From Siphonodentalium dalli (Eukaryota > Mollusca > Scaphopoda > Gadilida > Siphonodentaliidae): DNA of 64,000 bases. The first letter of the stretch is position 1; each line of letters starts with the position of its first letter. Shown piece after piece: positions 11,151-64,000 of the stretch. The notes below the pieces were generated by a model that worked only from the letters and a program-made list of their open reading frames with translations, was not told where the DNA came from and searched no databases. Where the stretch lies: positions 211,685,982 to 211,749,981 of the forward strand of contig CP136063.1 of the NCBI GenBank assembly GCA_032622095.1, given 5' to 3'. The translations under genes and the position numbers were made by a program.

Positions 11151-11190
11151 CCCATTGCGAAGGCCATCCATAGCTTTAAAGGTACTCAAG

Positions 11191-11444
11191 CAAGCCTTGA
11201 GATAGGGTGTCTGTCATTTGCAGAATGAGGTCCCCAGAGGGTGAATTTAGTGATGCTACCCCGCATAGCGGGCTAGCATCACCAAATTCACCCTCTGGGG
11301 ATCTCATTCTGCTTACACCTCAGCAGAATGAGGTTCCCAGAGGGTGAATTTGGTGATGCTAGCCCGCTATGCGGGGTAGCATCACTAAATTCACCCTCTG
11401 GGGACCTCATTCTGCAAATGACAGACACCCTATTTCAAGGCTTG
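11191..11444. mobile_element. Family C foldback element, full 254-bp copy
   Basis: The ends caagccttgagatagggtgt and the reverse complement (acaccctatttcaaggcttg) enclose two nested palindromes, each built on gcagaatgaggt, agagggtgaattt and the hairpin ccccgcatagcgggctagc. The copy at 26283-26536 is the same length and almost identical. Confidence 0.92.
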
Positions 11445-11960
11445 CACTCAAGGCCTTTAAAGTGGGTTCATGCAAATTAAAATATGCATTGTATTTATAA
11501 AAGTCTGTAAAACAACTACATGTACCATCAACAAGTACATGTGAAAATATATCGACTGTTCTTATTTTCATTATTAACCCTTTGATGACTGGAGCTTCCT
11601 GAAATTTTTGCGAAAACTCTGCTAACCCTGTGCCAATGCATTCTCTTATATAAGAGAGTCACATATGCAACGCATTGGCCTAACAATATTTACCTTCATC
11701 TTGTAAGCCAGTTCATTCTCTTATATATGCGAGGCTCCCTATGGTTAATAACTCTCGAATAATGAGATTTTGCATATTGAACCATTAATTGTTATGTAAA
11801 CATTACTGTTACAGTGGCATTACTGATCTAAGTTCAATAAGATTTTATTAAACTTTGTTAAACAAAGTTTAATAAATGAAAGTGTCAATGACACTATAGC
11901 TCAACTTGGAAAGGGGATATTGTCATGCATTACAGTCAATGGAGCAATAAGGAATGTGGA
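11445..11960. mobile_element. Family G element with a family B MITE inserted
   Basis: Family G text ('tataaaagtctgtaaaac', 'gttatgtaaacattactgtt') flanks a family B MITE at about 11574-11755 (ttaaccctttgatgactgga). Other family G copies lie at 39940-41215, 44440-44850 and 45963-46400. Confidence 0.65.
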
Positions 11961-25100: not shown

Positions 25101-28100
25101 CTTCAATGGATTATAAATGCTTATCCTGCTTGAAATGAGACCGTTGTCACTCTAATTCATACAATAGGCTATTTTCTAAAATTCAAGTGAGAGACACATA
25201 CATAATATACTAGTACATGTAGTACAGTAATAATGTCTATTAAGTTAGTAATTACTCTATGTTAATTATTCATTTAGTATTTGAGATCCCACCTGATAAC
25301 CAGGTTGATTTTATCAAATTGTCACTGTTCCTGTGCTGTATTGTGCAATTTCACTTTAATTTTATTGAAATAGTGACGTCTGAAGGCTGAATGATAACAA
25401 ACCTGAACTCAAACTATTTGAAGTTTTCACAGATGAAAGCTAGATCAAGCCAAACATACTTTACAGTATGATTCCAACTGTTTAACTTATATCTTTTAAA
25501 TGTCTTATGTCAATATATATAAATATATATATATCTTGATATGAATTGGGACCTGAATAAAAAAAAACTATTTGTTTTGGTCAAATTTTATTTTTGAGTG
25601 CCTGGAGTTTGGGAGAATTAAGTCAAGTTTTCCCAATGGAATAGGTGCAGGAAAAATCCCTGTCTGAAGTGCTCCCCAACAGTTCAATATCTTCACTTTT
25701 GATACACTCAAGATAATTATTCAATTTTAAATGTGATGTGAATTTCTATCTTTTGCCTGTTTCAATTCAAATTGGAAACCCCCAATTTGCAGGGCCCTAA
25801 TGATGTGTCATGGCTGATTGATGTGAATATAGTCCAAAAGACTTTTTCACTTTATCGGTCCATGGATACCACATTACCAGCGGATGCAAGACAACTTATT
25901 ATTTCCCTATAAATACCCGGCGTAGTGATAACAAAATATGAATATTATCTATTTATTTTATTTGAATAAATTTGATAACAACCAAAATGAAAATGATAAT
26001 AAAACATACGGTAAAACACTTGTAGAAGGAATTTTTGAACAATGATAAATTTTGCTATTAACAACAGAATTAGTTGATAATATTTTATTATTCTCCAAGT
26101 GGCAGAATAGCCTAAGGACGCTTACTAGTATATCTATTCTGCCACTAACTGTGATTAGTCTAACCACTGCCGGCACACCATTTAATCACTTGGAACATGG
26201 TTCCGTCAAAAATCTGGTTGATATTTAAAATTAATTCTATTATTTCTTAGTTACTAGATAGACCAGTACTTTATACTGGGCCCAAGCCTTGAAATAGTGT
26301 GTCTGTCATTTGCAGAATGAGGTCCCCAGAGGGTGAATTTAGTGATGCTACCCCGCATAGCGGGCTAGCATCACCAAATTCACCCTCTGGGAACCTCATT
26401 CTGCTGAGGTGTAAGCAGAATGAGGTCCCCAGAGGGTGAATTTGGTGATGCTAGCCCGCTATGCGGGGTAGCATCACTAAATTCACACTCTGGGGACCTC
26501 ATTCTGCAAATGACAGACACCCTATTTCAAGGCTTGACTGGGCCTACATTGCCTTTGTCATTGTAACAATAACATGACTCTTACATGAGGATTAGAGCAC
26601 TGACACTTTGTTTTTCATCAATTATTGCACGGATTTGGACTCTTGTTTTTACAACCACTGTCCAAACTAAATATAGACCAGACAGTTAAACCTATAAAAG
26701 ATCCCCAGTCTACACTAAAGCCGACAAGAGCTCATTATCAAGTATGTCAAATCTACCATCAGCGTCATTTTCAAAAACGCAGAAGGGGCTAAATAACCAT
26801 CACACAGGCAGAAATTTTATCCCGAAATCAAGCAAACATTTATGCTAAAATATTTGGCACTCAAGAGTAGGCTTAGTTTAGGCACTAGAAATACTCTAGA
26901 AGATATTGACATTCTGTTCCCACTCCATTTCAGACACGGCTTTATTCGACACAGACAGCTTTTAAAACTAAAGATGCTGTGAAGCCTGAGGCAAAAGTGA
27001 GTATAATTATAAAGAAGTTAATAAATGCATTTGGTTACTCTCAGGATTCATATAAAACTAGAGTGTGGAATAAATGTAGGGGGTGCAACATATCCCTGAA
27101 TCATATAAGAGTAGGGGGGAGGCAGAATAAAATTAAGGATAGGAAATCTGAAGGATATTCTCAAACACTTGGATTGTCAGCACAAATTATAATGTACCTG
27201 ATATCTGCATAGACTTAGCCAGCGACATTTGGGCGGGCAGTTTACAGAGTGGACAGGCAGTTAAAAATTTCTAATGAGTTATGGATTCCATATTATTATT
27301 GAAGTTTTTTCCTATTCTATTGTCCTATTCTGTCTGTTTCATCTTGTATCGTATTTTAAGAACTTGATGAATGAGCAGGTTGATTCATTTGACAGACTAA
27401 AATTCAAAAATATCCATACGGAGGATGCAGGAGGTAATTTCGTGTTATTCAGCATAAATAGCTGATAGTTGAAATCCAGAGGAAAATAGAATGTTGAAAC
27501 ACATGTTTAAACTTCAGATATTTATAGCCATGCTCCTGATATATAAGCATTGGGAACTTCAATTTAAAAAATTGTTAGATGTATAGGGTGATACTAGTGT
27601 TTTAGACCAGTAGACTTGTTTTTAAATGACAATGCATTTATAATTTACTAGCAGGGTTACCCGGCGTTGCCCAGGTTAATGTATGCTGTGGATATTCAAA
27701 TTTTGTTGGGAATAGAGAATGCTCTTGCTTAAAGTGTTATACGTTTTCTCATAAATTGTATATTCAAATAGCATCACAAAACATGATTATTACAGTCATG
27801 GAATGTAAGTAGTGGCTCACCTTGTCAATTGTCATTCTGTTTATCGCGATTAATCCGTTCCACCAATAATGAAGTATTTATTTATTTACAACTGCGTATA
27901 CATTAGACGTTATGATATGATACATGAACATCATAAACACATTAGTTCGATAAAAGATGATAATTGGGTTTTACATATTGAGATGTATCAATCAATCTAG
28001 TGGGTTGGACTAAGATGTCGAGTACACCTGGCTATCATATCTCCATGAAGATACAGATGTTTCAAAGAAATTTCCAGGTGCTCCTCTGTTCATGGTGCTA

Positions 28101-31100: not shown

Positions 31101-34100
31101 ATATCAATAATTAATCAATAATTAATCAATAATTAATCAATAACGATCATTTTATGTAATAATAAACTCTTCAAACAGTGTTTGTGTCAACAGATGCGTT
31201 TTGTTTTGTGTGTCATTCGTCGTATTTGACCCGAAACTCGGCTGAAGGTTAGGCTATTCAGCTTATTGCGTCGAATTACGAAATCGCGTTTTGAATGTCT
31301 CTCTTTTCCCGCACGATAAAAAGAGGTCTTCGCACGAACCAAAAATAATAAAACTTCCCAATTATAAGTAAAAATACCCAAATGAAGGAGTCTATGTAGG
31401 TCCCGAAGGAGTCTATAGACTCTTTGATGTAGAGTTCTGATGGAGAAAATGTAGGTCGATCTATTTTTGTCATAACTCTGGGATAAAAAATCGAAATCGA
31501 GGCTCACTATGAGCATGCCAGTTTTAAATATAGAAACAGGGAATCCCGACAAATGGCGATATCGGCGACAAACAAATAATCGAAAACAACACATAAAATA
31601 AACATAGCAAAAACGCGGCACAGTAAAAATGTCAGAACGCCACGAAGTTTTACGTCGTTTTTGGTGACGTCATGGAGTGAAGTAGGGTGACACCAACCTA
31701 CGAATCTGTCTGATTGCCATACTGTTGCGCGAGCGCACGTAATAAATGGCCCGCATTGGATGTTTTATTTAAATTTTTGAGATTACAACCAAAAAAGTAT
31801 GAAATTAAAACAAATTTGGGTACCAGTATGAGTGTATATCATATGCATAAGAAAGTTCCCTCTACATGTTCTGACTTTTCTAGACAAGGTATCATACTCA
31901 ATGCTTACTATGTGCTAAAATAATAATATAAAATTAAAATAAAAGCCTCCCTCACTGATTTAAAGTGATGTGAAACACTGCGGTAGGGTGATAACATATA
32001 AATGGAGAATAATCTTGTTCAAAGTAGTTATTTTTACAAATATTATGTCTAAATTGACAACTCACACCGTCATTCTTATATATTAATTAAATGCAGTGAC
32101 TGCTGATGACGAGATCATTTACGTTAGATTATCGCCGATAGAAGCGTCCCGATTTGAGTAGTAAATATTTACAATTTAGCGTAGTTCAGACAATGTTTTC
32201 TATGGAGTGGTACGGTCGATTTGCTTGAGATTTTGGGTGACGTTAGTAGAATGCTATATTCCTCCAGTTGGCATACCACCTGAATACTAACTTATCAGTT
32301 TCATTCACCCGAACAAGTACATAATATGTCTTTAAACATAAAATTGCCAAAGAAACAATTAATTTTGGATTGCCTTAGTGCAGCTTAGTGCTCAATTTTA
32401 ATGCACACAAAAGCCTTATGATAGCGCTGAAAGTTTCCCATGTTGTCATGATTTCAGAACTACAGTTAAGTTATATCTTCTACAGGTGACCAGACTTGAG
32501 AATGGGCTTGTCGTTGCTTCTTTGGAGAACAATTCCCCATTGTCCCGAATAGCTGTCGCAGTTAATGCTGGCTCTCGATATGAAGATGGCGAGAATCTTG
32601 GAGTAACTCATTGCATAAGATCAGCGGCCTGCTTGGTAAGTTTCATCACACCTCTCTTATAAGACTAAAATAAACTGAAGCTGTGTTTCCCCTATTCCAA
32701 GGTCACTGTCTAGTGATGTAACAATATGGGGTTAAAAGTCGATAGCCAATATTTTCAATAGAATTATTGGCGGATCCGATACAGATACTGAGACGGATAG
32801 GTCTTGTATGTGAAAATAGTTTGGGAGAAACAGAACAAATTTCCGTATCAATTTTTCTTTCAAATTGCAAAGTATTATCGGCAAAGAACTGATACCCTGG
32901 GCCCAAAAACGGTTTAGTTTACATTCCCAAAATGATTTAACATTCTGTTGCATTCGACAGATTTCCCAAATATTTGTTTTACTCCCTTATGTAATCACTC
33001 CATAATCCATTTGAGTCAATTTCAATTTGCCAAACGAACTTGATCTTTTTCAGAAGTTGAACTTGCGTTAATAATAACACCCGCAATGTCTCGCATACAA
33101 ATTCTGCCCATAGAGCACTCTGATTGGATTGGATGGTTCCATCTAACATGTAAGTCATCTCCTCCATCTTCAAACATCGTATACCAGAATGTCAATCAAT
33201 TTGGATCAAAAACACACGCAGTTAAATGTTGTTGTCTTCAATGATGCACCATAATATTTCAGTCTAATCAAGTTGACAGTGGGTTTGGTCTGACACGGAA
33301 GATACAGCAAGTTGGTGGAGATTTACAGTGAGTATGCTACTACATTAGGCTACATAAGCCAGTTCTATGTTACTCAAGTCTATGCAATTTATTTGAGTAA
33401 TTTGTACATGCCCCATTTAGGGTTAATAAAATAGTGATGTTTCACGTAACGGAGGAAAAAGTAAGGGGTAGTGGTAAAGTTTTTTTCATATTCTGAATAT
33501 ATTCCCCTGGCAGCGCAAACAATATAACAGGATACTATAAGCACATTACTACAGGCATTGGAAGAGATATTGAAGCCTTGATAGTATTTTGAATCACAAA
33601 TGATCGGGACATCAACCGGCCTGTTTACACAAAGACGACGCCATCTTCTGGTGTAAATAAAGCAGATCGGCAACTGATTAGAACAGTTTTAGTATGATCA
33701 CGGATTGATAAACGTGTCTCCCTACCATCCCCCAAATCCCCTCTATCACCCCCCCCCCCCCCCCCCCAAAGTTCCAAAATCAGAAACGGAATAATACGTG
33801 ACTATCAGTAAAAGGTATATTCCGTTATCTTAACATGAAACTATATAAAAACGTCATGCACTGCTTTCTCATTGTTTTAATCATCAACATTATGTCGTAC
33901 CATAAACGTTTCAGATTGAATACAGCTTAAGATTTTCAAGATCGTCTACAGGTGGAAATTATATGAGACCTCTGATTAAACAGTTTGAACCACAATCTAA
34001 AATTTATCGGAATATACAAAAAAAACATGTATTTTCAGTGCTATATCAATGAATTTGTTTGGAAATTTTCTGCATAGGTATGTTTTGAGATACCTCTTAC

Positions 34101-53921: not shown

Positions 53922-55623
53922 TGCCCCCGACTTGAAGTCGGCGGGTATATAGTCGACGTCTCCGTCCGTACAAACATTTTGCATTATTGTTCAGCAAACG
54001 CTGGGCAGATTTAGCTGATATTTGGTATGGTGATAGAGCAGCATGGGGGAACAGCTACATGCATAGCGCGGGTTTCGTCCACCCATTTTCACCAGAGTTA
54101 TGGCCCTTTTTTTACTTAGAAAATTCAATTTTGTCCGTCCGTACAAACATTTTGCATTATTGTTCAGCAACCGCTCGGCAGATTTTGCTGATATTTGGTA
54201 TGGTGATAGAGCAGCATGGGGGAACAGATACATGCATAGCGCGGGTTTCATCCACCCATTTTCACCAGAGTTATGGCCCTTTTTTCCTTAGAAAATTCAA
54301 TTTTTCACTTGTTTTTTTGGTTTCCAGATGATAGCGTGAGCTTTGGTGGTACGATTGCAAATCCCATATTTTTGTGGATCAGTTATATGAAAATGCATGT
54401 CAAGTGCGAATTTGGGTATGATCTGATGATTTTTGCCAGAGTTATGGCCCTTTTTTCAACTTATAAATCCGTCCGTACGTCCATACAAACATTTTGCATT
54501 ATTGTTCAGCAACCGCTGGGCAGATTTAGCTGATATTTGGTATGGTGATAGAGCAGCATGGGGGGAACAGCTACTTGCTTAGCGCAGGTTTTGTCCACCC
54601 ATTTTCACCAGAGTTATGGCCCTTTTTTTACTTAGAAAATTCAATTTTTCTCTTGTTTTTTGGGTTTCCAGATGATAGCGTGAGCTTTGGTGGTACGATT
54701 GCAAATCCCGTATTTTTGTGGATCAGTTATATGAAAATACATGTCAAGTGCAAATTTGGGTATGATCTGATGATTTTTGCCAGAGTTATGGCCCTTTTTT
54801 CAACTTATAAATCCGTCCGTACGTCCATACAAACATTTTGCATTATTGTTCAGCAACCGCTGGGCAGATTTAGCTGATATTTGGTATGGTGATAGAGCAG
54901 CATGGGGGAACAGCTACATGCATAGCGCAGGTTTTGTCCACCCATTTTCACCAGAGTTATGGCCCTTTTTTGACTTAGAAAATTCAATTTTGTCCGTCCG
55001 TACAAACATTTTGCATTATTGTTCAGCAACCGCTGGGCAGATTTAGCTGATATTTGGTATGGTGATAGAGCAGCATGGGGGGAACAGCTACTTGCTTAGC
55101 GTGGGTTTTCGTCCACCCATTTTCACCAGAGTTATGGCCCTTTTTTTACTTAGAAAATTCAATTTTTCTCTTGTTTTTTGGGTTTCCAGATGATAGCGTG
55201 AGCTTTGGTGGTACGATTGCAAATCCCGTATTTTTGTGGATCAGTTATATGAAAATACATGTCAAGTGCGAATTTGGGTATGATCTGATGATTTTTGCCA
55301 GAGTTATGGCCCTTTTTTCAACTTATAAATCAGTCCGTACGTCCATACAAACATTTTGCATTATTGTTCAGCAACCGCTGGGCAGATTTAGCTGATATTT
55401 GGTATGGTGATAGAGCAGCATGGGGGAACAGCTACATGCATAGTGCGGGTTTTGTCCACCCATTTTCACAAGAGTTATGGCCCTTTTTTTACTTAGAAAA
55501 ATCAATTTTGTCCGTCCGTACAAAAATTTTGCATTATTGTTCAGCAACCGCAGGGCAGATTTAGCTGATATTTGGTATGGTGATACCGTCCATGCTTAAT
55601 CCGAATTGCTACGGTCGGGGGCA
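53922..55623 (+). mobile_element. TIR element with internal 170/515-bp tandem array
   Basis: Ends 'tgcccccgacttgaagtcgg' and 'ctacggtcgggggca' pair over about 10 bases. Inside, 'acaaacattttgcattattg' recurs near 53970, 54144, 54487, 54830, 55003 and 55346, with an alternating insert ('gatgatagcgtgagctttgg'). Frames of 86-114 codons here repeat one another and are shadows. Confidence 0.85.
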
Positions 55624-56895: not shown

Positions 56896-57611
56896 AAAAA
56901 ATTTATAACGAGTTTTCGGTTTCTGATAATCTCGATATTAAAATGTCGAATGTTAAATTATTTGCGTGTAATATCTTTCGTTATTTTTTTTTTGTTCAAA
57001 TATTTTTCATGAAATTATTAATCGATGTTTAGAAATAGCTTTATTGGACATTGTGACCATCGATATGAATGCATACATTCCAGTGTTTTATCGGACGCAG
57101 TTCATATAATTGTCATACCTGAAAATAGACACTATTACTTTTACATAAATAATAAAGAGCGTTTATTCTTTACACTCTCTCTATCCCATATGACAGGTGT
57201 GTATTATCGTGAATTATTGGAAGTTTTGAGATGTACTATGTTCAATCCCTAACGGTCGAAAATTGTAATGTGAAATTACAACCCTCCAGAATGAATTGTC
57301 ATATTCGCTGTACACGCAATCACACGCGACATTGGTGGTAACAATGTGTCTTTCACACCTTTGCTTTACCAAATGAATTATATTATTTCCCCGGTCACAG
57401 TTATATGCTATTCAGAAAACATATCGATTTAATGTCTGAACAAACGGGTTAGTATCAATTAAGGTTGATAAACTGTGTCATTCACACGATAATTAGTTAG
57501 CCAAAAACATGCATACGTCCAGGACACTCAATTATAGAAATTGCTTTGATGACATTGTTATAACAACATTACGTAATAACCACTTATCGCCCCACATTCA
57601 TACTTACGCTT
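56896..57611. other. Flank of the right-end element, unassigned
   Basis: The 75-codon frame at 57025-57252 has no recognisable domain. The left edge of the right-end element probably lies in or just before this stretch. Confidence 0.4.
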
Positions 57612-57817
57612 TGGACATTTTATCAGTTTATCACGTGATCACTAAATGTGGCAATCGGGTATCCACCGATGCCTGCAATATATTATTTATAATAATTGGA
57701 CTCATTGATCTCACGTGAATAATACTCTTAGTTGTTCCAATAAAATAGTTATCAAATTCGATCACCAATAGATTTGACTGTGGAATGTAATGACCTTTTA
57801 ACTTATTTATCGATCTA
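57612..57817 (+). repeat. Module A, copy 1
   Basis: 206 bases starting 'ttggacattttatcagttta' nearly match 59080-59285. It contains the palindromic 'tcacgtgatca'. Confidence 0.9.
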
Positions 57818-58105
57818 AAGGGACACTCATTATGAATGAATGTTAACAATACAAGCGCACGAATGAAGAGCGTTGAACATATACAAAATTACTACACGAA
57901 TGAATTGAACCTTGAAATTTATATTTCACATCTTACCAACAACAGTTACAGACATAATCATAGTATTATACTGTCTTGCATGTACACACGCTATGACATC
58001 ATTAAAGGCGGACAATCCACTCACGGTGTGACAACAGATACGGACATAGGCATAGTGTTATACAGTCTTCTATGTACCCACGCTATGACACCATTAACGT
58101 ACATT
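57815..58105 (+). repeat. Module B, copy 1
   Basis: It starts 'taaagggacactcattatga' and matches 59681-59965. An internal duplication of 'cata.gtgttatac.gtctt' + catgtacccacgctatgaca gives two ~90-base half units. Confidence 0.9.
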
Positions 58106-58142: not shown

Positions 58143-58796
58143 AATGAGCAAATGAGCAAAAAAATGAGCAAATGAGCAAAAAAATGAGCACATGAGCAAG
58201 AAAATGAGCAAATGAGCAAGAAAATGAGCAAATGAGCAAGAAAATGAGCAAATGAGCAATAAAAATGAGCAAATGAGCAAAAAAATGAGCAAATGAGCAA
58301 GAAAATGAGCAAATGAGCAATCAAATGAGCAAGAAAATGAGCACATGAGCAAGAAAATGAGCACATGAGCAAGAAAATGAGCAAATGAGCAAGAAAATGA
58401 GCAAATGAGCAAGAAAATGAGCAAATGAGCAATAAAAATGAGCAAATGAGCAATAAAATGAGCAAATGAGCAAGAAAATGAGCAAATGAGCAAGAAAATG
58501 AGCAAAAAAATGAGCAAATGAGCAAGAAAATGAGCAAATGAGCAATAAAATGAGCAAATGAGCAATAAAATGAGCAAATGGGCAAAAAAATGAGCAAATG
58601 AGCAAGAAAATGAGCAAATGAGCAATAAAAATGAGCAAATGAGCAAAAAAATGAGCAAATGAGCAAGAAAATGAGCAAATGAGCAAGAAAATGAGCAATA
58701 AAAATGAGCAAATGAGCAAATAAATGAGCAAATGAGCAAAAAAATGAGCAATAAAATGAGCAAATGAGCAATAAAAATGAGCAAATGAGCAAACAA
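58143..58796. repeat. (TGAGCAAA)-type tandem array, left arm
   Basis: About 650 bases of 'aatgagcaaatgagcaag' and variants occur, with basic word tgagcaa and a period of about 16-18. It is open in all three minus frames and gives hydrophobic repeats such as FLAHLLIFLL. The same array reappears, inverted, from about 63878 to the window end. Confidence 0.95.
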
Positions 58797-59079
58797 ATGG
58801 GGCATACCTGTATGTAGGCCTATCAGTGGATGAATAGTCTGCCGGAGAAGTACTGTGTAGACAGGTCTTGACGGTAAGAGAGTCAGACGAGAAGTGAAGG
58901 CTTGGCTATTAAAACATAGTAATGCGATAGCGAACATCAAACGAGTCTGCGCACACATATCTGTCAAAAGGATACAATAGCAGTCATTGGTCAATTTATC
59001 CCCGGTGTCAGCTCAGTACCCAATCGGGACGAAGCCGAAGGTCAACTCATTTTTTTTTTTGCTCATTATAGTACGTCAC

Positions 59080-59285
59080 TTGGACATTTTATCAGTTTAT
59101 CACGTGATCACTAAATGTGGCAATCGGGTATCCACCGATGCCTGCAATTTATTATTTATAATAATTGGACTCATTGATCTCACGTAAATAATACTCTTAG
59201 TTGTTCCAATAAAATAGTTATCAAATTCGATCACCAATAGATTTGACTGTGGAATATAATGACCTTTAACTTATTTATCGATCTA
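59080..59285 (+). repeat. Module A, copy 2
   Basis: A direct repeat of 57612-57817. Its mirror lies at 63389-63594. Confidence 0.9.
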
Positions 59286-59448
59286 TGTTAGAACATGGTC
59301 TTAACAAAAAACTTGACCATAACAAAAATTACCTTACATTTATGCATGAATCTAATTAGACCATACGTAAATATTGTCAGCTTATCGTCTGATGAGCAAA
59401 TCCGATGTTTATCAAAAATAGTACAACTTCCAGTTGGTAATTACTCTT

Positions 59449-59653
59449 ACGAATGAAGAGCGTTGAACATATACGAAATTACTACACGAATGAACTGAAA
59501 TTTATATTTTCACATCTTACCAACAACAGATACAGACATAGTCATAGTGTTATACTATCTTACATGTACCCATGCTATGACATCATTCGAAGGGGCAATA
59601 CACTCAAGGAGTTAAAGTGACACGAAACAAGGGACGTGATGTAATATTGGTAT
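59449..59653 (+). repeat. Module B, partial copy
   Basis: 'gaatgaagagcgttgaacat' to 'catgctatgacatcatt', then a tail (aagggacgtgatgtaatatt) that also ends copy 2. It is shortened relative to copies 1 and 2. Mirror at 63021-63225. Confidence 0.8.
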
Positions 59654-59680
59654 TTGAATCTTAAAGGAACACAAGACACT

Positions 59681-59965
59681 CTAAAGGGACACTCATTATG
59701 AATGAATGTTAACAATACAAGCGCACGAATGAAGAGCGTTGAACATATACAAAATTACTACACGAATGAATTGAACCTTGAAATTTATATTACACATCTT
59801 ACCAACAACAGCTACAGGCATTATCATAGGGTTATACTGTCTTGCATATACACACGCTATGACATCATTAAAGGCGGACAATCCACTCACGGTGTGACAA
59901 CAGATACAGACATAGGTATAGTGTTATACAGTCTTCTATGTACCAATGCTATGACATAATTAAAG
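59681..59965 (+). repeat. Module B, copy 2
   Basis: A direct repeat of 57815-58105, with the same internal half-unit duplication. Mirror at 62709-62993. Confidence 0.9.
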
Positions 59966-60103
59966 GGGGATAATACATGCACGGTGTGGAATGTTAAAGT
60001 GACACGCGGTAAGGGACGTGATGTAATATTGGTGAAAACCCCTCCCCCACTTATAGATATATAACGAAGACGAGAATAACATGTTGATGAAGTTTATTGA
60101 AAT

Positions 60104-60706
60104 TTAATCATTGTCTGAATCTTCGCCCGTTAGATTTACTTCTAAGAGTTTCTTGAATTTTCTCATCGCTTCATCCGCAGCCCATTCATTATTATATCCG
60201 TGTTTGGTCAGTTTGACCATTTTCTTCATGATAGCGTTATGTATGCGGGATGTTTTCAATCGATGCTGGTATTCTATCAATCGTCTGTAACTTTTGAGAA
60301 AGAGAGAAAACTCTGTGTCGATGCGTTCTAGCTGAGCTTTTCCATCATCCTCTTCTCCCGACACGCCCTCTTCTTCCATCAGTTGATCAAACTTATCAGA
60401 CAATGCTTTCACATCATCGATGACGCGTTTCATCATACTTTTGAATGTGTTCATCTCATTGACGCATCGCGCAGCTTTCTTACGGCCGAATACCGTTCTA
60501 CTACCGGCGATAGTATCATCCTCTGAATCTGATAGAGTTCCCCGTTCATCTTCATCTGAATCTAGACCCGCTTCGTCAGATTCATCGGTATCTTCTCCGA
60601 AGAGAGTTGGTTTTGTCTCGGACATAACTCCGTGTTTAATCTGTTTATGTCTTTGTAGATTGTAGTTCGTCGATAAAATAATGCCACATAAATCACACCC
60701 GTGCAT
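60104..60706 (-). CDS. ORF2, left arm: C2H2-finger acidic protein, 200 aa
   Basis: This is the mirror copy of 61968-62570, identical in predicted protein. One C2H2 finger lies at residues 4-25 (C4, C7, H20, H25). A strongly acidic stretch covers about 36-67, a predicted helical/coiled region 84-115, and a basic C-terminal helix-rich region about 140-185 precedes a short acidic end. A polyadenylation signal (TTTATT on +, 60093-60098) lies 5 bases past the stop. The left-arm ORF1 overlaps its start by 14 bases. I do not recognise the family; C2H2 plus acidic region suggests a DNA-binding regulator, an inference only. Confidence 0.8.
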   Translation of the reverse strand: MHGCDLCGIILSTNYNLQRHKQIKHGVMSETKPTLFGEDTDESDEAGLDSDEDERGTLSDSEDDTIAGSRTVFGRKKAARCVNEMNTFKSMMKRVIDDVKALSDKFDQLMEEEGVSGEEDDGKAQLERIDTEFSLFLKSYRRLIEYQHRLKTSRIHNAIMKKMVKLTKHGYNNEWAADEAMRKFKKLLEVNLTGEDSDND

Positions 60707-60896
60707 TATCGCGAATTATTGGAAGAACCATCACTCTTATAAGTATTTGTTGTTGTTGTTGTGGCTGATGTGGCTGATGATACTGTTGTTGTTGTTGTTG
60801 TTGTTGTTCTGAAGGTGTGTGTTTAACTTTGATATGATGCTTCAAACTATCTTGCCAAGCATAGACACTTAAGCACTCTTCACATTGATACTTCAT
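60693..60896 (-). CDS. ORF1, left arm: C2H2-finger poly-Q protein, 67 aa
   Basis: This is the mirror of 61778-61981, with H instead of R at residue 20. One C2H2 finger (C5, C8, H21, H26) is followed by a run of eight Q and a second Q-rich patch. It ends 14 bases inside ORF2 in a different frame. Because both frames begin with or contain a finger, the pair may be one two-finger protein broken by a frameshift in the CAA repeat, or two overlapping genes. A TATA-like element lies at 60942-60949 on the minus strand. Confidence 0.65.
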   Translation of the reverse strand: MKYQCEECLSVYAWQDSLKHHIKVKHTPSEQQQQQQQQYHQPHQPQQQQQILIRVMVLPIIRDNARV

Positions 60897-60941
60897 TTTC
60901 CTATATAATCAGTGAAATCGAGCGTTCTTCTATGCACCTAT

Positions 60942-60949
60942 ATTTATAT
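60942..60949 (-). promoter_or_regulatory. TATA box for left-arm unit
   Basis: Mirror of 61725-61732 (TATATAAA), about 46 bases before the ORF1 start. A 14-base palindrome ACTAGTTAACTAGT lies at 60977-60990 just upstream. Confidence 0.6.
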
Positions 60950-61261
60950 AGAACAGAAACAAGGGAAACGTGGTGGACTAGTTAACTAGTTCAGGCTGTC
61001 GTTCACAACGTCTCTTATTGTTGTTTGTACTGGATACAAATTTATCACATTAGCTACAATACAACCTACCTATCCAAATGTCAATGCAATTATGAGTGAT
61101 TTCAATATGAACACTCTATTATATAGATATGTGTAACCTGGTGACTGACATGATGATACAGTTATGCACTAAATAATGGACTGCTTAACCACAGCAGAAT
61201 TATAGGTAACTTTTCAGGAGTTAGTCGGAAATATGGCTTGTTGCCATTCATCGGAAAGCTC

Positions 61262-61412
61262 TCACCGCCGCCGGCGGCGGCGGCAGCATTGCGGCATTGC
61301 AGTATTTTACTGTGGGGTCCGACGGCGGCGGACCCCGGCGGCGGTGGCGACACCGCCGCCGCAGTAAAATATCGCAATACCGCAATGCCGCCGCCGCCGC
61401 CGGCGGCGGTGA
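61262..61412. repeat. GC-rich axis with two side-by-side hairpins (T-shaped)
   Basis: The arms meet as ...ttttactg (to 61312) and cagtaaaa... (from 61362). Between them lie hairpin B (61314-61321 GGGGTCCG pairs with 61329-61336 CGGACCCC) and hairpin C (61336-61346 CGGCGGCGGTG pairs with 61351-61361). The outer stem near the axis is (CCG)n-rich and holds most of the arm mismatches. Confidence 0.92.
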
Positions 61413-61724
61413 GAGCTTTCCGATGAATGGCAACAAGCCATATTTCCGACTAACTCCTGAAAAGTTACCTATAATTCTGCTGTGGTTAAGCAGTCCATTA
61501 TTTAGTGCATAACTGTATCATCATGTCAGTCACCAGGTTACACATATCTATATAATAGAGTGTTCATATTGAAATCACTCATAATTGCATTGACATTTGG
61601 ATAGGTAGGTTGTATTGTAGCTAATGTGATAAATTTGTATCCAGTACAAACAACAATAAGAGACGTTGTGAACGACAGCCTGAACTAGTTAACTAGTCCA
61701 CCACGTTTCCCTTGTTTCTGTTCT

Positions 61725-61732
61725 ATATAAAT
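61725..61732 (+). promoter_or_regulatory. TATA box for right-arm unit
   Basis: TATATAAA lies 46 bases before the ORF1 start codon, with the 14-base perfect palindrome ACTAGTTAACTAGT at 61684-61697 about 28 bases further upstream, a candidate operator. Confidence 0.65.
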
Positions 61733-61777
61733 ATAGGTGCATAGAAGAACGCTCGATTTCACTGATTATATAGGAAA

Positions 61778-61981
61778 ATGAAGTATCAATGTGAAGAGTG
61801 CTTAAGTGTCTATGCTTGGCAAGATAGTTTGAAGCGTCATATCAAAGTTAAACACACACCTTCAGAACAACAACAACAACAACAACAACAGTATCATCAG
61901 CCACATCAGCCACAACAACAACAACAAATACTTATAAGAGTGATGGTTCTTCCAATAATTCGCGATAATGCACGGGTGTGA
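61778..61981 (+). CDS. ORF1, right arm: C2H2-finger poly-Q protein, 67 aa
   Basis: MKYQCEECLSVYAWQDSLKR and HIKVKH form one C2H2 finger of spacing C-x2-C-x12-H-x4-H (C5, C8, H21, H26). Residues 31-38 are all Q, with a second Q-rich patch at about 46-50, both coded by CAA repeats. The stop at 61979-61981 lies 14 bases inside ORF2. Finger spacing is the same in ORF2, which suggests a shared origin. The product is probably nuclear and DNA- or RNA-binding by analogy to C2H2 proteins. Whether it is a separate protein or the first part of a two-finger protein broken in the repeat tract is open. Confidence 0.68.
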   Translation: MKYQCEECLSVYAWQDSLKRHIKVKHTPSEQQQQQQQQYHQPHQPQQQQQILIRVMVLPIIRDNARV

Positions 61982-62570
61982 TTTATGTGGCATTATTTTA
62001 TCGACGAACTACAATCTACAAAGACATAAACAGATTAAACACGGAGTTATGTCCGAGACAAAACCAACTCTCTTCGGAGAAGATACCGATGAATCTGACG
62101 AAGCGGGTCTAGATTCAGATGAAGATGAACGGGGAACTCTATCAGATTCAGAGGATGATACTATCGCCGGTAGTAGAACGGTATTCGGCCGTAAGAAAGC
62201 TGCGCGATGCGTCAATGAGATGAACACATTCAAAAGTATGATGAAACGCGTCATCGATGATGTGAAAGCATTGTCTGATAAGTTTGATCAACTGATGGAA
62301 GAAGAGGGCGTGTCGGGAGAAGAGGATGATGGAAAAGCTCAGCTAGAACGCATCGACACAGAGTTTTCTCTCTTTCTCAAAAGTTACAGACGATTGATAG
62401 AATACCAGCATCGATTGAAAACATCCCGCATACATAACGCTATCATGAAGAAAATGGTCAAACTGACCAAACACGGATATAATAATGAATGGGCTGCGGA
62501 TGAAGCGATGAGAAAATTCAAGAAACTCTTAGAAGTAAATCTAACGGGCGAAGATTCAGACAATGATTAA
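61968..62570 (+). CDS. ORF2, right arm: C2H2-finger acidic protein, 200 aa
   Basis: The start at 61968 is the first ATG of the frame after an in-frame stop at 61956-61958. MHGCDLCGIILSTNYNLQRH and KQIKH form a C2H2 finger (C4, C7, H20, H25). An acidic stretch (about 36-67, DESDEAGLDSDEDERG) follows, then helical segments including NTFKSMMKRVIDDVKALSDK (likely coiled coil) and a basic region KTSRIHNAIMKKMVKLTK. The protein ends GEDSDND. I know no family with this whole layout. Perfect preservation of the frame in both arms suggests recent duplication or selection. AATAAA at 62576-62581 is 5 bases past the stop, a compact virus-like arrangement. Confidence 0.82.
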   Translation: MHGCDLCGIILSTNYNLQRHKQIKHGVMSETKPTLFGEDTDESDEAGLDSDEDERGTLSDSEDDTIAGSRTVFGRKKAARCVNEMNTFKSMMKRVIDDVKALSDKFDQLMEEEGVSGEEDDGKAQLERIDTEFSLFLKSYRRLIEYQHRLKTSRIHNAIMKKMVKLTKHGYNNEWAADEAMRKFKKLLEVNLTGEDSDND

Positions 62571-62575
62571 ATTTC

Positions 62576-62581
62576 AATAAA
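62576..62581 (+). terminator. Polyadenylation signal of the right-arm unit
   Basis: AATAAA begins 6 bases after the ORF2 stop (62568-62570). The mirror signal is at 60093-60098. Confidence 0.65.
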
Positions 62582-63877
62582 CTTCATCAACATGTTATTC
62601 TCGTCTTCGTTATATATCTATAAGTGGGGGAGGGGTTTTCACCAATATTACATCACGTCCCTTACCGCGTGTCACTTTAACATTCCACACCGTGCGTGTA
62701 TTATCCCCCTTTAATTATGTCATAGCATTGGTACATAGAAGACTGTATAACACTATACCTATGTCTGTATCTGTTGTCACACCGTGAGTGGATTGTCCGC
62801 CTTTAATGATGTCATAGCATGTGTATATGCAAGACAGTATAACCCTATGATAATGCCTGTAGCTGTTGTTGGTAAGATGTGTAATATAAATTTCAAGGTT
62901 CAATTCATTCGTGTAGTAATTTTGTATATGTTCAACGCTCTTCATTCGTGCGCTTGTATTGTTAACATTCATTCATAATGAGTGTCCCTTTAGAGTGTCT
63001 TGTGTTCCTTTAAGATTCAAATACCAATATTACATCACGTCCCTTGTTTCGTGTCACTTTAACTCCTTGAGTGTATTGCCCCTTCGAATGATGTCATAGC
63101 ATGGGTACATGTAAGATAGTATAACACTATGACTATGTCTGTATCTGTTGTTGGTAAGATGTGAAAATATAAATTTCAGTTCATTCGTGTAGTAATTTCG
63201 TATATGTTCAACGCTCTTCATTCGTAAGAGTAATTACCAACTGGAAGTTGTACTATTTTTGATAAACATCGGATTTGCTCATCAGACGATAAGCTGACAA
63301 TATTTACGTATGGTCTAATTAGATTCATGCATAAATGTAAGGTAATTTTTGTTATGGTCAAGTTTTTTGTTAAGACCATGTTCTAACATAGATCGATAAA
63401 TAAGTTAAAGGTCATTATATTCCACAGTCAAATCTATTGGTGATCGAATTTGATAACTATTTTATTGGAACAACTAAGAGTATTATTTACGTGAGATCAA
63501 TGAGTCCAATTATTATAAATAATAAATTGCAGGCATCGGTGGATACCCGATTGCCACATTTAGTGATCACGTGATAAACTGATAAAATGTCCAAGTGACG
63601 TACTATAATGAGCAAAAAAAAAAATGAGTTGACCTTCGGCTTCGTCCCGATTGGGTACTGAGCTGACACCGGGGATAAATTGACCAATGACTGCTATTGT
63701 ATCCTTTTGACAGATATGTGTGCGCAGACTCGTTTGATGTTCGCTATCGCATTACTATGTTTTAATAGCCAAGCCTTCACTTCTCGTCTGACTCTCTTAC
63801 CGTCAAGACCTGTCTACACAGTACTTCTCCGGCAGACTATTCATCCACTGATAGGCCTACATACAGGTATGCCCCAT

Positions 63878-64000
63878 TTGTTTGCTCATTTGCTCATTTT
63901 TATTGCTCATTTGCTCATTTTATTGCTCATTTTTTTGCTCATTTGCTCATTTATTTGCTCATTTGCTCATTTTTATTGCTCATTTGCTCATTTTCTTGCT
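63878..64000. repeat. (TTTGCTCA)-type array, right arm, cut by window end
   Basis: The inverted mirror of the 58143-58796 array begins here and continues past the window edge. Confidence 0.93.

Follow-up and report, generated by a model that had tools for sequence, protein, structure and literature searches.

Introduction

To our knowledge, hairpin ends occur among the agents of animals only in parvoviruses and in some large DNA viruses. In AAV, a closed hairpin that is not nicked is described as letting synthesis through; the products are duplex dimers, joined head to head, whose axis of symmetry lies in the ITR (PMC1131931). Among AAV defective particles, snapback genomes are reported to be a major class (PMC8235507). 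For Kaumoebavirus, covalently closed ends are deduced from a hairpin with incomplete pairing that continues into both strands of the terminal repeat (PMC7909422). For vaccinia, hairpins with mismatches are described, as are concatemer junctions (PMC8956199). A T-shaped hairpin of 161 nt is reported for the Penaeus monodon metallodensovirus (PMC11357303). Inverted blocks of endogenous IHHNV in shrimp genomes (PMC8982415) offer a precedent for such junctions in animals, and ITRs near densovirus genes are reported from tapeworm genomes (PMC6880638).

Here we compare with these systems a long palindrome found in a 64-kb stretch of DNA (the whole stretch analysed, called the window below). A first-pass annotation made from the letters had read its centre as a possible head-to-head junction of a linear, virus-like or self-replicating element; this interpretation is partly supported by the present analysis. 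Among the matches listed in a literature search, no matching animal element was recognisable by title and the start of the abstract, which is a weak guide to the published record.

Results

Fold of the palindrome centre

The palindrome is centred on 61337 and each arm is at least 2.6 kb long within the 64-kb window. Its centre is a T-shaped hairpin of terminal type (61262..61412, 151 nt, 72% GC) that forms the GC peak of the window: the highest-GC 150-bp block, scanned in 10-bp steps, begins at 61261. The DNA fold of 61262-61412, in which nested parts were folded too, consisted of one stem and two hairpins (-89.5 kcal/mol), in line with the T or cross described in the first-pass annotation. 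The outer stem was paired to 61312/61362, where the two arms had been said to stop pairing, and a T.G wobble (61313/61361) follows. Hairpin B (61314..61336) had the 8-bp stem and 7-base loop attributed to it. Hairpin C (61337..61360) had the proposed 4-base loop (GCGA), but its stem is 10 bp and not 11 bp long, as the eleventh pair would borrow a base from B. The A stem, B and C meet in a three-way junction with zero unpaired bases. MFE DNA folds reproduced the T, with one added pair in the B loop and a few stem pairs shifted around mismatches. The order A-B-C-A' is the layout described for the AAV2 end (PMC1131931); the first-pass annotation had recognised it as that of parvovirus-type terminal repeats, and the block resembles a terminal palindrome of Parvoviridae type, folding to a T or Y, by its shape only.

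The energy of the core (61314-61360) was matched or beaten by 0 of 5000 dinucleotide shuffles, and 4 of 5000 formed two hairpins with 19 pairs or more (768 of 5000 at a laxer cut of 16 pairs or more). Only one of 11311 host 47-mers formed two hairpins with 18 pairs or more, and in 0 of 11311 was the energy as low as -25. When the core was shuffled by mononucleotide, 196 of 40000 sequences were comparable by pairs and 7 of 40000 by energy. The view that chance could hardly produce the fold was toned down by a control for the GC block, a second-order Markov model in which 206 of 40000 sequences were comparable by pairs and 55 of 40000 by energy; between 0.1 and 0.5% of GC-rich model sequences fold comparably at the centre. 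The T fold exceeds chance, though not astronomically, once GC-richness is considered.

The left half of the stem holds a 16-bp GC palindrome, CCGCCGCCGGCGGCGG, at 61265-61280 and three 8-bp iterons (GCAGCATT, GCGGCATT and GCAGTATT), and the right half holds the iterons GCGGCATT, GCGGTATT and GCGATATT. The GCGGCATT-type 8-bp iteron, present three times per stem half, is unrelated to GNGC and to ACCA, the latter being the initiator-binding repeat at the MVM end. No tandem GNGC or ACCA pair was found on either strand of 61101-61574. An IMG/VR search with a 28-mer of the A stem (taken from the right half, then as a pattern covering both halves) gave 0 matches. The 17-mer of hairpin B was found in 11 IMG/VR stretches, which were rejected as chance matches; the loci of all 11 have 55-71% GC and lack the remaining hairpin.

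Stem and arms

A 2630-nt inverted repeat pairs 58686-61315 with 61359-63988. The left arm (58686..61261, minus strand) and the right arm (61413..64000, plus strand) are nearly identical: a position-by-position comparison over 58800-61261 (2462 bp) found 3 differences, at 60838/61836, 59978/62696 and 59855/62819, and the arms differ further out in a tandem array. This array of AATGAGCA-type units lies at 58143..58799 (plus strand, 63 units by pattern count) on the left; on the right only its beginning is seen (63875..64000, minus strand), as the window end cuts both the array and the arm. At this outer edge the two arrays are unequal by one 8-bp unit, the extra unit being on the right; apart from this indel, the right arm mirrors the left one to the window end. 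Imperfect subrepeats of 92-172 bp occupy 62641..63225 (plus strand), with a mirror copy at 59449-60033.

At each of the 3 arm substitutions, a CpG on one arm faces a TpG or CpA on the other. If CpG is the ancestral state, 2 of the changes lie on the left arm and 1 on the right. As 6.8% of left-arm bases are in CpG, the chance that 3 of 3 differences fall there is about 3e-4, a rough figure that assumes uniform changes. The pattern is consistent with decay of methylated CpG once the arm had been duplicated in a methylated genome, and methylation-linked miscalls would look alike. A more diverged, partial direct copy of the arm lies at 57611..58097 (plus strand), with segments matching 59080-59285 (98%) and 59680-59963 (95%). 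Aligned with the matching arm segments, it shows 17 differences, and CpG transitions make up 2 of its 16 substitutions, so the CpG bias is confined to the comparison of arm with arm. About 394 bp are absent between the two arm segments of this copy, which is outside the visible mirrored region.

By contrast with the arms, the 52-bp stem, whose outer bounds are those set by the first-pass annotation, is diverged between its halves. The left half (A, 61262..61313, plus strand) and the right half (A', 61361..61412, minus strand) match at 47 of 52 positions. The 5 differences (61285, 61295, 61301, 61302 and 61313, facing 61389, 61379, 61373, 61372 and 61361) are 3 A.C mismatches and 2 G.T wobbles, all in register. 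Divergence was 5/52 in the stem vs. 3/2462 in the adjoining arm (Fisher's exact P = 1.7e-7), and the gap held when the innermost stem pair was excluded (4/51, P = 5e-6). A single uniform mutation history of the whole palindrome fits this gap poorly. In the simplest reading of these counts, the imperfect hairpin is probably older than the event that mirror-copied the arm from one side.

An incompletely paired hairpin flanked by near-perfect terminal repeats is the configuration of pox/asfar-type ends, and it is present here in the stem and arm counts just given. Replication around a hairpin end would predict this asymmetry, with AAV dimers and the ends of poxviruses and Kaumoebavirus as parallels, and in this respect the proposed junction of a hairpin-ended replicon is supported, an imperfect hairpin with near-perfect arms being what copying round such an end gives. 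Foldback priming at a hairpin that already existed, in the host cell or in the library, predicts an equal asymmetry. As the asymmetry is common to both, it does not separate biology from artefact; it does count against a symmetrical foldback transposon.

Arm genes

Each arm carries two overlapping open reading frames. On the right arm, ORF1 (61778..61981, plus strand, 67 aa) encodes an N-terminal C2H2 zinc finger followed by a Q-rich part, and ORF2 (61968..62570, plus strand, 200 aa) encodes an N-terminal C2H2 finger and an acidic stretch; the two overlap by 14 nt. Both remain open in the mirror copies on the minus strand (ORF1 at 60693-60896, with one R-to-H change, and ORF2 at 60104-60706). 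A candidate TATA-like box, TATATAAATA, called by sequence alone, lies 44 nt upstream of ORF1 (61724..61733, plus strand; mirror copy 60941-60950, minus strand), and a poly(A)-type signal, AATAAA, lies 5 nt past ORF2 (62576..62581, plus strand; mirror copy 60093-60098). None of 3000 mononucleotide shuffles of 61413-62700 contained an ORF as long as 200 aa (longest, 159).

The best Pfam match of ORF1 was zf-H2C2_5 (E 6e-4) and ORF2 matched zf-C2H2 (E 0.003), both under the curated cut-off. The finger spacing in both, read by eye, is C-X2-C-X12-H-X4-H. An AlphaFold model of ORF2 alone was helical and of low confidence (mean pLDDT 53.8), too poor for a structure search. ORF2 had no match in a protein database, whether the limit was E 0.001 or E 10 (187 candidates), and for ORF1 there was no candidate; the database is perhaps poor in animal proteins, which makes these absences weak. 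ORF2 had no match in a sequence search of the PDB at E 1. In IMG/VR there were 14 pattern matches for ORF2, 106 for ORF1 and 22 for a 75-aa ORF at 57025-57252, and none was confirmed as a relative. The 75-aa ORF lies in a CpG-dense stretch adjoining the element and had no Pfam match at E 0.1.

Genomic setting and gene content

The frame 32402-32659 matched Pfam M16 above the cut-off, and its residues 27-79 matched UQCRC2 chains in the PDB (best E 2.6e-14), which we take to be vertebrate. A likely exon of the host gene for UQCRC2 (cytochrome b-c1 / complex III subunit 2) is thus placed at 32480-32638. This match and the lack of long ORFs elsewhere in the window indicate an animal nuclear genome, so that an animal host, as first proposed, is likely.

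CpG o/e reached 1.14 over the arm gene region and 0.93 over the outer arm, against 0.65 for positions 1-56600; the inner arm (60900-61261) gave 0.59. Values above 1.0 were also found in three host 2-kb bins, and high values start near 55.6 kb. The raised CpG o/e of the arm is in keeping with a recent arrival; the argument is weak because of the low inner arm and the three host bins. Host-type repeats extend to approximately 56.6 kb, so that a free end is at most indirectly indicated. The window also holds two copies (11190-11445 and 26283-26536) of a near-perfect palindrome of approximately 255 bp, with arms of 123-124 bp and an 8-base centre, which look like a palindromic MITE. A piece at 56544-56610 matches these palindromes and other places in the window. 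At 53961-55585 lies a large array of tandem repeats, whose periods are 173 and 344 bp.

Stop-to-stop frames of at least 180 aa were confined to the array region (three frames), ORF2 and its mirror. The survey of ORF sizes, covering intact frames in the window, found none the size of NS1/Rep, of a capsid gene or of a polymerase. The Pfam scan of 12 selected ORFs gave the weak zinc-finger matches, M16 in the host UQCRC2 frame and weak matches at chance level. Rfam (gathering scores) and ARAGORN (bacterial code) found nothing in the window, and no second terminus was seen within its 64 kb. Membership of the Parvoviridae is not supported, as the window has no intact ORF of NS1 or capsid size and the surroundings of the hairpin have no GNGC repeats. 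Of the parvovirus-type end that the first-pass annotation had proposed, the layout thus stands, but family membership lacks support, given in addition that the searches found no relative of the arm genes.

Discussion

We regard it as evenly balanced whether 61262-61412 is the terminal hairpin of a linear hairpin-ended replicon, with the palindrome as its head-to-head (snap-back) product. Under such a scheme, DNA synthesis would run along one arm, round the T-shaped end and back along that same arm, leaving a head-to-head palindrome. The folded end would comprise two side hairpins and a stem that holds three 8-bp iterons and a small number of fixed mispairs, and the iterons, with the adjoining 16-bp palindrome, may serve or bind a putative initiator. 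The arm would be nearly perfect because it was copied from itself, and each arm would carry the same ORF1/ORF2 zinc-finger pair, reading outward from the hairpin. The head-to-head form would then have been integrated in the chromosome, or attached by the assembler.

Several observations favour this replicon: a T fold beyond that of shuffles, the gap between stem and arm, an ORF longer than in shuffles and two weak finger matches. From the stem and arm counts we infer that the stem came first and that the arms were mirrored later. The hairpin would once have been a free genome end, and the synthesis around it biological; the iterons would bind an initiator, and the junction would lie in the chromosome instead of consisting of reads of free copies joined by the assembler. 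Other observations speak against such a replicon. ORF1 and ORF2 have no homologue in the databases searched, IMG/VR gave no relative, and the window has no ORF of replication- or capsid-gene size. There is one locus in the window, where no second copy, flop isomer, insertion ends or target duplication were seen. Moreover, GC-rich model sequence folds comparably at the rate given above, and explanations by foldback predict the same asymmetry.

Whether the locus represents a new family of hairpin-telomere replicons living in this animal lineage is a more tentative matter, and we lean against it. Such a family would have a GC-rich, mismatched T end, its own origin of 8-bp iterons, inverted ends of several kilobases with a doubled zinc-finger pair and no Rep repeat of parvovirus type, and its run-round replication would leave head-to-head dimers in chromosomes.

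The alternative that survives best, which we still consider unlikely, is a foldback artefact seeded by the hairpin. The genome, or an episome, would then have a single arm that terminates in the T hairpin; the hairpin would be real and the right arm not chromosomal, produced by self-priming, by a read of template and complement, or by reads of a closed free end assembled as a palindrome. Long-read data are described as containing foldback reads, some of them nearly perfectly palindromic, and such artefacts can tangle assembly graphs (PMC12870357). Foldback priming at a hairpin in the cell (PMC10766183) would give the same asymmetry, and a hairpin could presumably seed foldback reads in a library too. 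The first-pass annotation had not expected a centre of two hairpins from an assembly foldback; this was too strong, a pre-existing hairpin being a natural place for foldback. The tiny divergence of the arms fits such an artefact, and the 3 arm differences, all CpG against TpG or CpA, may be methylation-linked, strand-dependent miscalls. However, the arms are separated by an 8-bp array unit as well as by these substitutions, and the CpG-ancestral changes, lying on both arms, fit real divergence equally. A foldback at a random place would seldom land on such a centre, judging by the single host 47-mer in 11311.

A foldback-type transposable element, mobile through its outer ends and with the central T as a secondary feature, seems improbable. 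Foldback elements with long inverted arms that hold internal tandem arrays and subrepeats exist, and the arms described here have this composition. Such an element does not, however, predict a stem beside the axis that is approximately 80 times more divergent than the arms, nor the gap-free T junction. About as improbable, finally, is a host-driven inverted duplication of the ODIRA type, in which, at a fork or break with a short inverted repeat, template switching would have turned ordinary host or relic DNA into a large palindrome: it likewise predicts an imperfect centre with near-perfect arms, but a plain short inverted repeat would be enough for it, a gap-free two-hairpin junction with stem iterons is uncalled for, and the arms resemble an element in their overlapping open ORFs and arrays.

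A real junction would mean that a replication intermediate of a hairpin-ended element, with genes that match nothing in the databases searched, is present in an animal genome, and an imperfect hairpin with near-perfect arms would be a sequence signature for finding similar elements in assemblies, one that alone cannot tell elements from foldback artefacts seeded by a hairpin.

In its comparison with known systems, the locus combines traits of several. Shrimp IHHNV EVEs are described as having inverted repeats with hairpin-forming centres in animal genomes (PMC8982415), and tapeworm densovirus remnants as having ITR stems in sequence integrated in an animal genome (PMC6880638); as described, both are recognisable by viral genes, whereas none was recognised here. 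ODIRA-type palindromes, described as beginning at short inverted repeats, and long-read foldback artefacts, as described, share with the locus an inverted copy about an axis, but no special T-shaped centre or arm genes are expected in either. Poxviruses, African swine fever virus, Kaumoebavirus and chlorovirus PBCV-1 are described as having an incompletely paired hairpin beside terminal inverted repeats, like the present locus; these are hairpin-ended large DNA viruses, and no large ORF is present in the window. The ITRs of vaccinia are reported to contain tandem repeats, as the arms do, while its hairpins are described as AT-rich (PMC8956199) and the present one is T-shaped and very GC-rich.

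Parvoviruses differ from the locus in gene content, with no intact ORF of NS1 or capsid size in the window. They differ also in the mirrored arms of at least 2.6 kb, the 5 stem differences and the zinc-finger ORFs without found relatives. A Parvoviridae genome is approximately 4-6 kb long with two hairpin ends, whereas the window has one hairpin and its end cuts the right arm. The initiator-binding repeat described for the AAV end is GNGC (PMC1131931), which is absent in tandem from the 61101-61574 region. In the order A-B-B'-C-C'-A', nevertheless, the centre agrees with the T-shaped ITRs described for parvoviruses, and its length of 151 nt compares with 125 reported for AAV2 and 161 nt for the metallodensovirus. 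A hairpin block lying on the axis of head-to-head symmetry, as here, is described for the duplex-dimer and snapback forms of AAV. The closest structural relatives of the locus are thus the T-shaped ITRs of AAV2 and of the shrimp metallodensovirus, together with AAV snapback genomes.
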